A stretch of DNA of 64,000 nucleotides. It comes from an uncultured Roseburia sp. (GTDB taxonomy: Bacteria > Bacillota > Clostridia > Lachnospirales > Lachnospiraceae). The stretch is from positions 1 through 64,000 of the forward strand of contig CAKRDK010000009.1 in assembly GCA_934309475.1 (NCBI GenBank). Direction: 5' to 3'. The notes under the pieces were generated by a model. That model was given only the letters and a program-made list of their open reading frames with translations. It had not been told where the DNA came from and ran no database searches. Shown piece by piece: positions 8,691 through 50,418 of this stretch. The position numbers were made by a program, and so were the translations under genes. The number at the start of each line of letters is the position of its first letter. Within the stretch, counting starts at the first letter, position 1.

Positions 8691-8722
8691 ATAAAAAAGG
8701 ACCGTATACTCATACAGTCCTT
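8691..8722 (-). terminator. Intrinsic terminator of the tRNA-like RNA
   Basis: Minus-strand stem AAGGACTGTAT/ATACGGTCCTT (arms 8722-8712 and 8707-8697, one mismatch) with a four-base loop, followed by six U. It would end the tRNA-like transcript and reduce transcription into the terminase operon from upstream. Confidence 0.8.
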
Positions 8723-8790
8723 GACAAACGTCCGGATTCGAACCGGAGTCACGGCCATCACCATGTAATCCCCCTATACTACTATTTGCC
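8691..8790 (-). ncRNA. Candidate independent tRNA-like small RNA
   Basis: On the minus strand a consensus-spaced promoter would start RNA at the G at 8790. From there, 68 bases resemble a reduced tRNA: 5' GGCAAAT can pair with GTTTGTC at 8729-8723 (two G-U pairs), a D-arm-like TAGT...ATTA encloses GGGGG, and the T-arm has TCCGG, loop TTCGAAT, CCGGA, matching the GGTTCGAATCC box. The anticodon arm only folds with a six-base loop and the variable loop is about two bases, so ordinary tRNA function is doubtful. A strong terminator follows at once. No CCA is encoded. It could be a decayed phage tRNA or a tRNA mimic. Confidence 0.5.
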
Positions 8791-9177
8791 AAGGTCATTA
8801 TACCAAATTTTTCTTACTCTCTCAACCATTTTTCGTTCTTCTGTCGTTAACTTTGCCGCTCCCTTTTGACTATCACTTTCGTTATGATTATATCCATGAT
8901 GTGTGTGTGGTTTTATTCCCTTGTGTGCTTTCTCTAAGTCAATTTGCTTTCTTCTTTTGTTAACATTGTCATAATATGTTATTGACACAAGCCTATTTTC
9001 TTCATTAACGGTCACATACACACGTCCCCTTGTCATGGTCTCCTGTGGTGTTTTGGCTGATGTCGCATCATTATACTGAACAAATTTGATATTGCCACTC
9101 TCGTGCAACGTTGTGTACTCACTGCCATACTTCTTACCTTTATCACTTAATCCGCTACTCGCTCCTCTGCCACCCAT
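8782..9177 (-). CDS. GGRGASSG-motif phage protein, function unknown
   Basis: 131 residues starting MGGRGASSG, a short motif often seen at domain junctions of phage head-associated toxin-like proteins. The C-terminal half has GIKPHTHHGYNHNESDS, a histidine-rich stretch that could bind metal. I chose the ATG at 9177-9175, directly after the stop of the upstream gene (TGA-A-ATG), over a longer start inside it. It may be a detached effector-like domain, but no enzyme family is recognised. The promoter of the tRNA-like RNA lies in its last codons. Confidence 0.55.
   Translation of the reverse strand: MGGRGASSGLSDKGKKYGSEYTTLHESGNIKFVQYNDATSAKTPQETMTRGRVYVTVNEENRLVSITYYDNVNKRRKQIDLEKAHKGIKPHTHHGYNHNESDSQKGAAKLTTEERKMVERVRKIWYNDLGK
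8797..8825 (-). promoter_or_regulatory. Promoter of the tRNA-like RNA
   Basis: TTGAGA (8825-8820), 17-base spacer, TATAAT (8802-8797). The predicted start is exactly the first base of the tRNA-like fold. It lies inside the 3' end of the gene at 8782-9177. Confidence 0.65.
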
Positions 9178-20975: not shown

Positions 20976-21224
20976 TTAATCTGGAACATCTATCTCTGTA
21001 AATGCAATTCTCACTCCTGCAGCATCCGCCAGCTTATATAAATCTCTAAGTGGCATCTTCTCTGGATGTAACAGTCTGTCTGTAATTGTTCTTGCTGGTA
21101 TTCCGGTTTTCTTACTCACAGCTGCCGTGCTAAGATTTCGCTGTCGGAATCCACCATCAAGTTTTCCTGCGACGTAGTCATATCTCTTTTGGCTTTTGTT
21201 TTCACACAAATTTGTTTTTGGCAT
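20976..21224 (-). CDS. Small helix-turn-helix regulator
   Basis: 82 residues with NLSTAAVSKKTGIPARTITDR, a clear helix-turn-helix, then LRDLYKLADAAGVRI typical of XRE-like proteins. Ribosome site AGGGAG. It is in the early operon downstream of the Cro-like gene and probably tunes early transcription. Confidence 0.65.
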   Translation of the reverse strand: MPKTNLCENKSQKRYDYVAGKLDGGFRQRNLSTAAVSKKTGIPARTITDRLLHPEKMPLRDLYKLADAAGVRIAFTEIDVPD

Positions 21225-21263
21225 ATACTCACGCTCCCTTCTGTTTTTTCTTTTTACTTGTGA

Positions 21264-21294
21264 TATAATCTCCCTACAGGACGTTGCCGCGTCC
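21264..21294 (+). promoter_or_regulatory. Extended -10 promoter and leader hairpin
   Basis: TGATATAAT (21261-21269) is an extended -10 element; the -35 is poor. A short hairpin GGACG/CGTCC follows in the leader (21,279-21,294) before the gene at 21,320. Confidence 0.45.
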
Positions 21295-21319
21295 GAGTAA
21301 TTGAAAGGAGATAACGCTT

Positions 21320-21475
21320 ATGTCTATCTACGAGGAGCTTTCTTTAATCTATGTAAAGAAAAACTCAAATCCTGGAGACTCTCCAGAAAAATTACTTGCC
21401 ATGTATCGCGAAGCGTATGATAAAATAACCAAATGCGACAAGCTGCATGGTGGCAAGGCATTCTCTTTTGAATAG
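21320..21475 (+). CDS. 51-residue rightward phage protein
   Basis: Begins MSIYEELSLIYVKKNSNPG and ends HGGKAFSFE; preceded by AAAGGAG with nine-base spacing and an extended -10 promoter. It is transcribed against the early operon, from the lysogen side. Overlaps the end of the leftward gene at 21392 by 84 bases. A common unassigned type in Lachnospiraceae prophages by its look; function unknown. Confidence 0.55.
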   Translation: MSIYEELSLIYVKKNSNPGDSPEKLLAMYREAYDKITKCDKLHGGKAFSFE

Positions 21476-21601
21476 TTCTTTGCTAATTTGTGCCATAGCC
21501 TTTGAATTTTCGCTTACTGTGTTCATTGCTGGATACACATTCTTTGAATCCTCTGCTAACAGTTCCATCTGCTGGTGGAGGATTTTGCTTTTACATTTCA
21601 C
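21392..21601 (-). CDS. Small leftward protein with C-terminal hydrophobic stretch
   Basis: 69 residues from a GTG at 21601 after GGGAGATGAG. Helical, with a hydrophobic C-terminal stretch (ATMQLVAFGYFIIRFAI). It overlaps the rightward 51-residue gene tail to tail, so one of the two may not be expressed; the rightward gene has better signals. Confidence 0.4.
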   Translation of the reverse strand: MKCKSKILHQQMELLAEDSKNVYPAMNTVSENSKAMAQISKELFKRECLATMQLVAFGYFIIRFAIHGK

Positions 21602-21644
21602 TCTTTCTCATCTCCCTTCTATTAACTAATTCCATTTTGATTAC

Positions 21645-21673
21645 TTGAATTTTTCTTTCGCATATGTTAATAT
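21645..21673 (+). promoter_or_regulatory. Promoter of the 310-nt RNA candidate
   Basis: TTGAAT (21645-21650), 17 bases, TAATAT (21668-21673); start expected near 21680, at the base of the first RNA stem. Confidence 0.5.
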
Positions 21674-21679
21674 TTGCCT

Positions 21680-21990
21680 ACCCTAAAAGCGAAGGAGGGA
21701 TGTTCCCTATGTGGAAGCTTTTTTCTTCGCCCTGCGCTTTGATGAGTATTGGATGCATTACCATCGTCCAATGCAATAAGTGTTTGCAATAGGGCGGAAT
21801 ATTAACGAGTGCCTATCGTTTAAGAAACACGATGTGAAAAGATGGTGTGTGCTACTCTAGCCATCATTCCGGTAATACACAGTCGCGAATGTGTATGAGC
21901 CGTTTAGAGCCGGAACTTTCACATCTCATTGCAGTAAATAGGCTGAAAAGAAGCATTTTCGGTAGTAGTACGCTGAGATGCTTCTTTTTC
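21680..21990 (+). ncRNA. Candidate multi-branched structured RNA, about 310 nt
   Basis: A 350-base gene-free stretch packed with pairing arms. GCGAAG 21689-94/21725-30 encloses AGGGA/TCCCT. CGCCCT 21728-33/21791-96 stacks on TATTG/CAATA and TGCATT/AATGCA. TTAACGA 21802-08/21816-23 has one bulge. GATGTGAAA 21831-39/21917-25 encloses GATGG/CCATC and TTCCGG/CCGGAA, the latter holding ATACACA/TGTGTAT. A ten-pair terminator with AAAGAAGCAT/ATGCTTCTTT and a T run closes it (21,947-21,987). It has its own promoter. The first two stems share bases and may be alternatives. A 27-codon frame at 21,710 with a distant AGGAGGG is probably incidental. I recognise no known RNA class. Confidence 0.5.
21947..21990 (+). 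terminator. Intrinsic terminator of the RNA candidate
   Basis: Stem 21947-21956 with 21978-21987 and a 21-base loop, then T residues. Ends next to the convergent gene at 21989. Confidence 0.7.
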
Positions 21991-22195
21991 ATTTCTTGTC
22001 CGGCATACGGGGCTTAAACTGCTCCAGCGGTACGCCAATCGCATCACATATCCGCATATACTCATTTACTTCAATTCTTCTTTTATCATTCAGCATCATG
22101 CAGAAAATAGGTTCTGGTATTCCTGCTTTCTTAGCAATATGTGCCTGCTTAAGTCCATTTTCTACCAGATACACCTTTATATCGCTTCCCTTCAA
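21989..22195 (-). CDS. Small XRE-type regulator
   Basis: 68 residues: NGLKQAHIAKKAGIPEPIFCMM is the helix-turn-helix, followed by NEYMRICDAIGVPLEQF. Starts at TTG (22195-22193) just after GAGGTGAG. One of three small HTH genes of the leftward early region; probably Cro-like or an accessory regulator. Confidence 0.65.
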   Translation of the reverse strand: MKGSDIKVYLVENGLKQAHIAKKAGIPEPIFCMMLNDKRRIEVNEYMRICDAIGVPLEQFKPRMPDKK

Positions 22196-22291
22196 GTTCT
22201 CACCTCTTTCTGTTTTTGCAATTTTTATTTTGTTTTTCGCAATATATTGATATATTGTTTGCTTTTATACCTATATATTGTGTTTTTTATG

Positions 22292-22340
22292 TTGACATAT
22301 AAACATTTGTTCTGTATAATTACATATGAACATTTGTTCT
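22292..22340 (+). promoter_or_regulatory. Consensus promoter with two LexA-like (SOS) boxes
   Basis: TTGACA (22292-22297), 17 bases, TATAAT (22315-22320): a perfect promoter. Site 1, AAACATTTGTTC (22301-22312), fills the spacer; site 2, GAACATTTGTTC (22328-22339), follows the -10. Site 2 fits the Firmicutes LexA pattern GAAC-N4-GTTC exactly, site 1 with one change. The two are part of a 19-base direct repeat with period 27. This should hold the downstream gene off until DNA damage. Confidence 0.65.
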
Positions 22341-22387
22341 TGCATCGTTCGTTGTGTGTGCCACCCATCAAAGAAAGGATGATGTAT

Positions 22388-22597
22388 ATGCCAAAAAGAA
22401 TTAGCGTAACACACGAAACTTCAACCGGAAGAAATACCAACTTCCACGACAATTACACTGGCGCTGATATGACCCGCGCTCAATTTGTACGTCAAATAAA
22501 TAATGGTACCTATGAAAACTATCATGTTAGAAACATTAACGGTGTCCAAACTCCGGTTTCCAATCCAGATAGTTCCCGTAACAACAACCTCGGTTAA
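22388..22597 (+). CDS. DUF3892-like protein under SOS-type control
   Basis: 69 residues starting MPKRISVTHETSTGRN with DNYTGADMTRAQFV and a C-terminal VQTPVSNPD, matching DUF3892, a small family of unknown function. AAAGGA lies eight bases before the ATG. It is the only gene behind the LexA-box promoter and ends convergently over the stop of the gene at 22594. A damage-induced role in prophage induction is an inference from the promoter. Confidence 0.7.
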   Translation: MPKRISVTHETSTGRNTNFHDNYTGADMTRAQFVRQINNGTYENYHVRNINGVQTPVSNPDSSRNNNLG

Positions 22598-25148: not shown

Positions 25149-26342
25149 ATGGCAAAAGCAAAAAAATTGCCTTCCGGTTCTTGGAGGTGCCTTGTATACG
25201 ATTACACTGATATAAACGGCAAAAGAAAGTATAAATCATTTACAGATGATGACCCAACGCCAGCTGGAAGGCGTCGATGTGAAATGAAGGCAGCCGAATA
25301 CGCAGCAACAAAAGAAAAACGTAACAGATCATCTGAAAGTCTGACAATAACCGAAGCTATTGATAAATATATCGAGAAATATCCGCAGTTATCAGAAACA
25401 ACGGTAGCTGGATATCGAACAGCACAGCAATACGGATTTCAATGTTTAATGAACAAAAGACTATCAAGTCTGAACAATGATATTCTCCAAGAAGCTATTA
25501 ACGAAGAATGTACGCGCCCTTCTCGCTCCAAGCGAAGCAAGGGAAAGCCGATTGGAGCCAAAACAGTAAAGAATGAATTCGGTCTGATTTCCACTGTTAT
25601 ACATGAATTCTATCCATTTGAAATTAACGTGAAACTTCCTCAGGCATCAACTCATGTGAATGAGATATCTATGCCAGATGTTATTTTTAATGTTGTAAAA
25701 GGAACAGATATTGAATTGCCTGTACTTCTAGCTATGTGGTTGAGTTTTACCATGTCAGAAATTAGAGGTCTTACAAAATCCGGATCCATAAAAGGAAACT
25801 GTCTATATGTAGACCAGGTAACGGTCAGCGTGAATGGAAAAGATATCGACAAAAGCATTGCAAAGAATAAAAAAAGAAACCGGATGCTTGTAATACCAGA
25901 ATACATTAAAGGATTGATTGATGAAGTGGAAACAGATAGATTGGTCACAATGAGCGGTAAAGCCGTCTCAAACAAGTTTTCTTATCTTCTTAAGAAGAAT
26001 GGTATCCCCCATATGTCTTTTCACGATTTACGGCACGTTAGCGCGTCTGTAATGGCAATGCTAAATGTCCCGGATAAATATGCGCAAGACCGTGGTGGAT
26101 GGGAAACAGATAAAATCATGAAGAGTACATACATGCAGACGTTTAAAACTGCCAGAACTGAAATTGATAACAAGATTGATAATTATTTTAATGAATCGCT
26201 TTTCGGAACTAAAAAAGATTCAGAATTAGAGAAAAAATATGATTGCTGGCTTACTCTATTCGAAAGGGAAGATACACCAGAATCAAAAGAAGAATTTCAA
26301 AAGTTCTTATCTATGCAACACGAAATGCAACACGTCAAGTAA
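25149..26342 (+). CDS. int: Tyrosine recombinase integrase of the prophage
   Basis: 397 residues. N-terminal arm-binding (AP2-like) part with SGSWRCLVYDYTD, a SAM-like core-binding domain (ITEAIDKYIEKYP, VAGYRTAQQY), then the catalytic domain: Arg in SEIRGL (about 205), HDLRHVSASVM (about 289-299) and the nucleophile Tyr in STYMQTF (about 327). It catalyses integration at the adjacent ssrA 3' end. Excision would also need a directionality factor, not identified here. Ribosome site AAGGAGG. Confidence 0.93.
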   Translation: MAKAKKLPSGSWRCLVYDYTDINGKRKYKSFTDDDPTPAGRRRCEMKAAEYAATKEKRNRSSESLTITEAIDKYIEKYPQLSETTVAGYRTAQQYGFQCLMNKRLSSLNNDILQEAINEECTRPSRSKRSKGKPIGAKTVKNEFGLISTVIHEFYPFEINVKLPQASTHVNEISMPDVIFNVVKGTDIELPVLLAMWLSFTMSEIRGLTKSGSIKGNCLYVDQVTVSVNGKDIDKSIAKNKKRNRMLVIPEYIKGLIDEVETDRLVTMSGKAVSNKFSYLLKKNGIPHMSFHDLRHVSASVMAMLNVPDKYAQDRGGWETDKIMKSTYMQTFKTARTEIDNKIDNYFNESLFGTKKDSELEKKYDCWLTLFEREDTPESKEEFQKFLSMQHEMQHVK

Positions 26343-26367
26343 AAAAGCGCCTACTTAGGCGCTTTTT
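26342..26367. terminator. Bidirectional terminator between integrase and ssrA
   Basis: Perfect stem AAAAAGCGCCT/AGGCGCTTTTT with loop ACTT; T-rich on both sides. It ends integrase transcription and the tmRNA transcript. Confidence 0.85.
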
Positions 26368-26371
26368 AGAG

Positions 26372-26708
26372 TGGACCTGACGGGAGTCGAACCCGTGTCC
26401 AAAAACCAGTCCCCTGTCCTTCTACGAGTGTAGTCAGTTCTTTAACATTCCCTCTGCCACCCGGGAACGGACACCCTGATGGTTTCAGTAGCTTCATCAT
26501 ACGCCCACCGGCTCAAAGCTTTGCCGGTGTCGTTTCCTACATCGTCGAAGCCTGGGTCCTAAAGTGTAGGTGCTCTAGGTCAGACTGCTGCCATTAGGCA
26601 GCGTATGCTAAATTATCTTCAGCGTTTAATTTTAGTTTTGCCATTTAACGCATTGCATGCGACTCGCTTCTCCAGCTTCATGATCCCTGTCGAAACCATT
26701 ACAAGCCC
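26372..26708 (-). rRNA. ssrA: tmRNA (transfer-messenger RNA; no exact type in list, not a ribosomal RNA)
   Basis: The tRNA-like ends are GGGCTTG (26708-26702) pairing with CAGGTCC (26379-26373), with T-arm GGACACGGGTTCGACTCCCGT and the 5' segment ATGGTTTCGACAGGG typical of tmRNA. The tag frame reads AKLKLNAEDNLAYAA then TAA, ending in the AYAA degradation signal. It rescues stalled ribosomes with SmpB. After the discriminator the chromosome reads CTC, not CCA, so the CCA end must be added; this junction is where the prophage was inserted. The 5' end is six bases from the smpB stop, so its promoter lies inside smpB or the two are cotranscribed. Confidence 0.9.
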
Positions 26709-49860: not shown

Positions 49861-49934
49861 ATCTGTCACACCTTTCTTCTTTTTGTCTACAAAACTTACC
49901 GTTCCATTATCCCACAGACGCTGCAAAATTTCAA

Positions 49935-50036
49935 TTATTCTTCAAAATATTCGCGATAATCTTCCTCATCTGCAAACAGCATATACTGTCCATTTACAAA
50001 TCCCATATAACCAGCTTCTACAACATATCCTTTCAT
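49935..50036 (-). CDS. 33-residue conserved-type small protein
   Basis: ATG at 50036-50034 after AAAGGAG. The peptide (MKGYVVEAGYMGFVNG..., ending YREYFEE) is a well-formed beta-rich mini-protein with an acidic end and resembles short proteins I associate with Lachnospiraceae genomes. Upstream of the thioesterase gene. Function unknown. Confidence 0.6.
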   Translation of the reverse strand: MKGYVVEAGYMGFVNGQYMLFADEEDYREYFEE

Positions 50037-50418
50037 AAAAAATACACTCCTTTTCTCAAAAACTTTTTCGTTCTCTTCTTGATAAAAGGAGTGTATCAGA
50101 TATATAGTCCCATAAAACGGACTTTAGTATGGAATTTTCATCTTTTTTTCTACATAGCGAAAGGCAGCCGGGGTGGCTGCCTTTCTTAGGAGAAGGTATT
50201 TTACTATGGGGTAATAGTAAAATTATATATAATGTATTGGGGGGTTTTTACAGGTATTATAATACCATGACCCGCGCAATCGGTGTGCACAAAGATTCAC
50301 TTTTTTTCGACCTTTTTTTATTCAACTTGTATACAAGAAATTCGGTTCTGTGAAAAATTGCTATCATTCTGTCGGAAACTGATATTTGATTTTCAGTTTC
50401 TTTTGTAATCCGCCATTT
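50037..50418. other. 380-base intergenic region
   Basis: No gene is supported. It holds a hairpin AAAGGCAGCC/GGCTGCCTTT (50160-50169 with 50174-50183) that may terminate the M3 peptidase transcript, a perfect 14-base palindrome GGTATTATAATACC at 50253-50266, and T-rich stretches around 50,300. A 74-codon + strand frame here has no ribosome site and is not accepted. Confidence 0.6.

Follow-up and report, generated by a model that had tools for sequence, protein, structure and literature searches.

The RNA candidate at positions 21680-21990 of the window, the whole 64,000-nucleotide stretch of uncultured Roseburia sp. DNA that we analyzed, is a real structured RNA as judged by comparison with its homologues. 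Compensatory change in these homologues is the decisive support for this conclusion. We consider it about two-thirds probable that the candidate is a structured RNA gene in its own right, carried by a temperate phage and similar in kind to the orphan RNA FuFi-1 (RF02986). We observed homologues, covariation, complementarity between two loops, counterparts of a short 5′ open reading frame (mini-ORF) and a genomic place comparable to that of a phage FuFi-1 RNA. The features discussed below are as follows.

21645-21673, forward strand: promoter-like site, −35-like TTGAAT (21645-21650), 17-nt spacer, −10-like TAATAT (21668-21673); sequence, 8/12 consensus
21680-21990, forward strand: structured RNA, FuFi-1-like; MFE z −4.64, homologues and covariation; transcript ends are estimates
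21689-21730, forward strand: stem 1 hairpin, 12 pairs, containing the Shine-Dalgarno (SD)-like sequence; MFE helix, mean pair probability 0.99
21692-21698, forward strand: SD-like AAGGAGG; counterparts in homologues L044 and L057 and in FuFi-1 RNAs
21709-21792, forward strand: short ORF MWKLFSSPCALMSIGCITIVQCNKCLQ, 27 codons, MWKLFSSP...; SD, start and xKL
21746-21774, forward strand: stem 2 hairpin, 10 pairs; MFE helix, mean pair probability 0.98
21780-21830, forward strand: P3 (21780-85/21825-30) enclosing the P4 hairpin AACGA-GUGCCUA-UCGUU, then UAAG; strands hand-picked
21831-21925, forward strand: three-way junction of P5 (21831-39/21917-25), P6 (21841-46/21860-65), P7 (21867-73/21909-15) and P8 (21875-81/21890-96), P8 loop GUCGCGAA; covariation
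21849-21856, forward strand: P6 loop GUGCUACU, complementary to the terminator loop AGUAGUAC; loop shuffles
21945-21989, forward strand: terminator hairpin, loop 21964-21971; 14 + 4 pairs, z −4.25 alone
21989-22195, reverse strand: small Cro/C1-type HTH gene, tail to tail with the RNA; PF13443, 4.8e-5
22388-22597, forward strand: phrog_11939 small protein; its relative in phage contig L012 follows a FuFi-1 RNA

Genomic setting and predicted fold

A preliminary description had proposed a discrete structured RNA in the prophage immunity region, and this proposal held: the stems it listed are present, the fold is stable and the homologues covary. The forward strand of 21670-21990 has a minimum free energy (MFE) of −102.8 kcal/mol and a z-score of −4.64, with none of 100 shuffles as good, while the reverse strand of the same stretch folds more poorly (z −2.68). 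One predicted fold also pairs 21681-21685 with 21790-21794 as a 5′ closing helix, which we do not count as part of the structure. Without its terminator, the RNA has a z-score of −2.88 (4/200 shuffles as good), and 14 of the 412 310-nt tiles across the window (20 shuffles each) reached a lower z-score than 21680-21989. Fold energy alone is weak support for the candidate. The lowest z-score among the 412 tiles, −7.96, belongs to 49911-50220 on the reverse strand, and 8692-8792, also on the reverse strand, matches the Streptococcus family SpF41_sRNA of Rfam (71.5 bits; cut-off 52).

The promoter with 17-base spacing that had been described is present but weak, as its 8/12 consensus letters fall below the cut-off of 9 in our promoter scan, so that it is absent from the scan's list. 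The terminator, given earlier as ten pairs, is longer. The small HTH gene does lie tail to tail with the RNA; a search of viral contigs returned no relative of it. It is followed by the phrog_11939 gene, a further HTH gene and, beyond these, a repressor-like HTH protein (23093), a KilA-N protein and an integrase beside tmRNA. To the left of the RNA are leftward ORFs, starting at about 21601. The integrase and tmRNA genes (25149-26708) suggest prophage integration at ssrA. Between 20976 and 22939, the small genes alternate in direction, those pointing left being HTH genes, and form a cassette-like row; Roseburia phage Jekyll (L001) has a similar row. A perfect TTGACA-17-TATAAT promoter on the forward strand (22292-22345) is overlapped by the direct repeat ACATTTGTTCT, which is likely an operator upstream of the phrog_11939 gene.

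Different small genes occupy the corresponding place in other phages. A 33-nt stretch (21625-21657) that overlaps the promoter-like site is 91% identical in Jekyll, where it sits upstream of a gene of 65 amino acids (aa) at the corresponding place; this gene, too, is tail to tail with a relative of the window HTH gene (45.5% identity). A pattern scan for the promoter returned one contig, which reads as Jekyll itself. In phage contig MT835739, a short ORF (74 codons from TTG, fewer from an inner ATG) lies at the place beside a related HTH gene. Small genes seem to use this place as a cassette site.

Homologues and compensatory change

We built a first covariance model, of the three-way junction, from the window alone. 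Searching 397 genomes with this model gave two matches at E ≤ 0.1. One, L044 (genome G217; 33.1 bits, E 1.9e-5 per genome), aligned with the window along the whole RNA, with 174 of 295 aligned letters identical. The other, L045 (22.9 and 25.6 bits), was dropped as it lies inside a long ORF read as an rRNA methyltransferase; L068 (27.1 bits), which overlaps an ORF end, was also dropped. Scanning viral contigs for patterns brought in three more loci: L048 and L050, whose RNA is identical to that of L044, and L057, whose sequence is a third distinct one (71.5 bits); 5/7 and 14/17 of the loci from these scans were dropped by sequence and by model R2. In total, homologues occur at one locus in a genome and on three viral contigs, and represent two further distinct sequences.

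A model built from the window and L044 found only G217, L044's own genome, in 392 genomes of the order and in 371 of the class, and G217 plus the rejected L045 in a set of 195; these sets overlap. The stricter filters used here lose weak matches, and the empty answer from 62 genomes carries no weight. Blastn with the window RNA yielded no homologue in phages, plasmids, 397 family genomes or 62 genus genomes, only short chance-like matches and, in phages, the Jekyll promoter stretch, and the L044 RNA had no sequence match in phages or plasmids. Two further pattern scans also came back empty. Homologues are few, with one genome in the searched sets, and this counts against our preferred explanation.

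The homologues have varied surroundings. To the right of the RNA, L050 and L057 carry repressor genes, and L050 has a recombinase-like ORF farther on, while the L044 stretch has small genes on both strands. Our promoter script found no site in L044 or L057, where only TTGAAA-17-TGTAAT was seen by eye. Differences between L044 and L057 cluster in the middle of the RNA, from P3 to P8, and the 5′ part, which holds the mini-ORF, has a single substitution. The clustering hints at recombination or locally relaxed constraint.

The preliminary description had put forward compensatory changes among homologues, sought with a covariance model, as a check on itself, and such changes were found. We aligned the three distinct sequences (window, L044 and L057) by fitting to the model, so that the alignment leans towards the structure. 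In the three-way junction, 10 of 29 pairs show double changes, and 91.9% of 86 cells are paired. On four of five measures, none of 500 shuffles reached the observed value, with 18/500 doing so on the fifth (pair types), and controls in which the structure was slid gave at most 2 double-change pairs. With the window and L044 only, there were 8 double-change pairs (3/500 shuffles as good). Of the 86 cells, 7 are unpaired: L044 has three of them, with P5 accounting for two and the base of P6 for one, and L057 has the other four, in P5, P6, P7 and P8.

The hand-picked P4 hairpin is paired in all three sequences (AACGA/UCGUU, UGUGG/CCACA and UGUAG/CUACA), with double changes in 5/5 pairs around the loop GUGYCUA, and 16/18 cells of P3 are paired. 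The P8 loop is invariant across the three sequences and palindromic (UCGCGA), which is only a hint of a dimer or self-contact. The L057 terminator stem has two mismatches, and L057 may be partly decayed. A pairing of the P4 loop with the linker suits the window and L044; as it fails in L057, we dropped it.

FuFi-1, a proposed loop-terminator contact and the mini-ORF

To our knowledge, FuFi-1 is an orphan RNA class of unknown function; it was reportedly described by Weinberg et al. in 2017. Our literature search, whose coverage lacked the describing paper, found no paper on it. The earlier statement that the RNA matches no known class stands insofar as no Rfam model reaches it, but its architecture, loop contact, linker words, mini-ORF and place are FuFi-1-like. 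In Rfam 15, the window RNA reached the cut-off of no family, with chance-like matches only at E ≤ 10. Scans of the window RNA, L044 and L057 gave low-scoring matches far below the cut-offs (SpF01, microRNAs, CRISPR-DR, SCARNA6, SNORD82, OppA, Ysr49, Ysr206, RAGATH-26 and PCA3), which we rejected as chance. Since the FuFi-1 model (cut-off 59.6 bits) does not match the window RNA at E ≤ 10, we call the RNA FuFi-1-like and not a member.

True FuFi-1 RNAs were present in three phage loci. In L057, one (2037-2258, 121.8 bits) lies downstream of the homologue, where it meets an HTH gene tail to tail. Another, in L069 (MT835537; 95.6 bits), lies between leftward and rightward ORFs read as HTH genes. 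The third, in L012 (106.1 bits), adjoins a leftward gene and is directly upstream of a relative of the window 22388-22597 gene, the sole reason for which this locus was chosen. Its place is comparable to that of the window RNA, although the window has an HTH gene between the RNA and the phrog_11939 gene and L012 has none. The FuFi-1 model matched none of 11 other loci scanned, and in 60 family genomes its single match at E ≤ 0.001 fell short of the cut-off. At E ≤ 10 it missed the L057 homologue and at E ≤ 1 it missed L044; model R2, in turn, reached none of the FuFi-1 RNAs in L012, L057 and L069. These RNAs (L057:1860-2258, L069:1976-2322 and L012:4570-4898, all on the forward strand) seem to reach about 80-180 nt farther 5′ than the Rfam model.

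Since no model crosses between both groups, kinship with FuFi-1 rests on compared features. By eye, both have the same plan, in which a helix with an inner hairpin leads directly into a three-way junction bearing two hairpins, and then come a linker and a terminator end. UAAG after the inner hairpin and GUAAA words are common to both, and the linker words AGUAAA and UAGGC are common, by eye, to the window RNA and the L057 FuFi-1. The conserved FuFi-1 linker GGUAAACAAAUUUGGGAAA partly resembles, by eye, AGUAAAUAGGC of the window and GGUAUACAAUGGAC of L044. In contrast, the FuFi-1 inner hairpin GCAGAACC...CUGC is absent from the window RNA, as P4 has other letters and shares only the UAAG that follows. 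The window RNA also has a shorter linker, other hairpin loops (GUGYCUA and GUCGCGAA) and a longer mini-ORF. From the shared features, compared by eye and taken together with the genomic place and the loop contact described below, the window RNA is probably akin to FuFi-1, though it looks far-diverged.

Two parts of the RNA were absent from the preliminary description. One is complementarity between the P6 loop and the terminator loop. In the FuFi-1 consensus, the first junction loop (GUGCUAU) is likewise complementary to the terminator loop (AUAGCAC), and both are unpaired in the Rfam structure line. We shuffled both loops, as strings with a few flanking stem letters, in 20000 trials. Shuffles were as good as the observed contact in 42/20000 trials for the window and 305/20000 for L044, whose pair GCACUAC/GUAGUGC differs from that of the window by one position changed on both sides and one G-U to A-U change. 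Similar complementarity occurs in all three FuFi-1 RNAs examined: GGCGCUAU/AUAGCGCU in L057 (55/20000), GCUGUUUCAU/GUGGAACAGC in L069 (30/20000) and CGUGAA/UUCACG in L012 (236/20000). It fails in the L057 homologue, where the contact has one A-C mismatch and one U-G, is at chance level (15170/20000) and shows no covariation. Among the other loop pairs tested in the three sequences, none went below 5%.

The other part is the mini-ORF with its SD, which makes doubtful the earlier reading that the stretch contains no plausible protein: SD and 27-codon ORF (21692-21792) have counterparts elsewhere. The homologues L044 and L057 have a 26-codon mini-ORF (MEKLIAF...), and the start codons of the window and L044 align by eye. 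Upstream of the Rfam match, each of the three phage FuFi-1 RNAs has a purine-rich stretch, a TTG start and 14-16 codons beginning MTKLLNLPV or MTKLLTLPV. We tested five RNAs for an SD (5/6), a start and xKL, a test framed after FuFi-1 was found, with the window/L044 ORF pair noted before. Four had the combination (window, L044, L057 FuFi-1 and L069 FuFi-1), which arose in 2, 2, 1 and 2 of 5000 letter shuffles of these RNAs; the L012 FuFi-1 fails on the SD. The peptides differ widely between homologues. Protein searches of two forward-strand frames, one of them the window frame from 21664, and of one antisense frame of L044 found no homologue. The mini-ORF is a possible coding sequence.

Possible roles and comparison with known RNAs

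Our preferred reading can be stated as a mechanism. Transcription of the RNA would begin at its own promoter, run rightward, away from the early operon, and stop at its own terminator. Its 5′ part would provide a ribosome-binding site and a tiny ORF that is translated or loads ribosomes, and its 3′ part would consist of the P3/P4 hairpin domain and the three-way junction, whose first hairpin loop would kiss the terminator loop. Because of this kiss, the terminator hairpin would be a structural part of the finished RNA. We infer expression in the lysogen and a regulatory role, in which the finished folded RNA would act in trans, probably with a protein. More tentatively, and with rather less than even odds, FuFi-1 and the window RNA might be branches of one phage lysogeny RNA class, each a message and a structural RNA at once, in which an MxKL mini-ORF brings ribosomes and the loop-terminator kiss locks the 3′ domain.

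Some of the same evidence would suit an RNA that is mainly a small messenger, its 5′ ORF encoding a short peptide (27 aa in the window) and the remainder forming an untranslated region with structure, in the manner of type I toxin mRNAs or leader-peptide RNAs. The SD, start and xKL in 4/5 RNAs, rare in shuffles, and the aligned start codons favor it, as do the protein genes at the same place in Jekyll (65 aa) and MT835739. However, the peptides vary in length (14 to 27 aa) and in their C-terminal half, the frames searched have no protein homologue and the measured covariation sits 3′ of the ORF. Moreover, a consensus scan of the reverse strand from 21200 to 22500 showed no sigma-70-like site that could serve as an antisense promoter. 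We regard a mainly messenger function as unlikely. A cis-acting leader or attenuator of a neighboring gene, which the leader-like SD near the 5′ end might suggest, is much less likely still, as the RNA points away from the early operon, its terminator faces an opposite gene and different genes lie downstream of the homologues L050 and L057.

The RNA could also belong to a real structured phage class unrelated to FuFi-1, with the common architecture having arisen separately or being partly a reading. That the model of neither group matches the other, and that the P4 and P8 loops are unlike those of FuFi-1, fits such a class; the comparable place in L012, the tandem arrangement in L057 and the resemblance in loop-terminator contact, in linker words and in mini-ORF argue against it, and we doubt it about as much as the messenger. 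Least probable by far is a chance fold or decayed gene remnant. Although z-scores of −4 or lower occur in 14/412 tiles and L057 has broken pairs, this explanation is already contradicted by the homologues, given the double changes in stems (0/500 shuffles) and the whole-length alignment with L044.

On the preferred reading, a FuFi-1-like phage RNA gene, the window RNA and the three phage FuFi-1 RNAs place such RNAs in phage immunity regions and add two parts, the 5′ mini-ORF and the loop-terminator contact, beyond the displayed Rfam structure line. A role in lysogeny is therefore directly testable.

Several known RNAs offer partial parallels. Bacillus prophages encode type I toxin mRNAs, bsrG among them, which are folded RNAs some 300 nt long with a short ORF close to the 5′ end. 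The window RNA is likewise a folded prophage RNA of about this length with a short 5′ ORF, but no antisense RNA is evident and its junction, 3′ of the ORF, covaries. The ornate RNAs GOLLD and ROOL are linked to phages, and Rfam contains models of them. They are described as bacterial RNAs that are structured, have no known role and assemble into homo-oligomers (PMC12286853). The window RNA is also a structured bacterial RNA of unknown role, with its palindromic P8 loop as the sole hint of self-contact, but differs from GOLLD and ROOL in having no Rfam hit, in being much shorter and in lacking evidence of multimers. IsrK of Gifsy-1 is a prophage RNA described as both a small RNA and a messenger (PMC4825925). 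The window RNA resembles IsrK, by description only, as a prophage RNA that may be small RNA and messenger at once.
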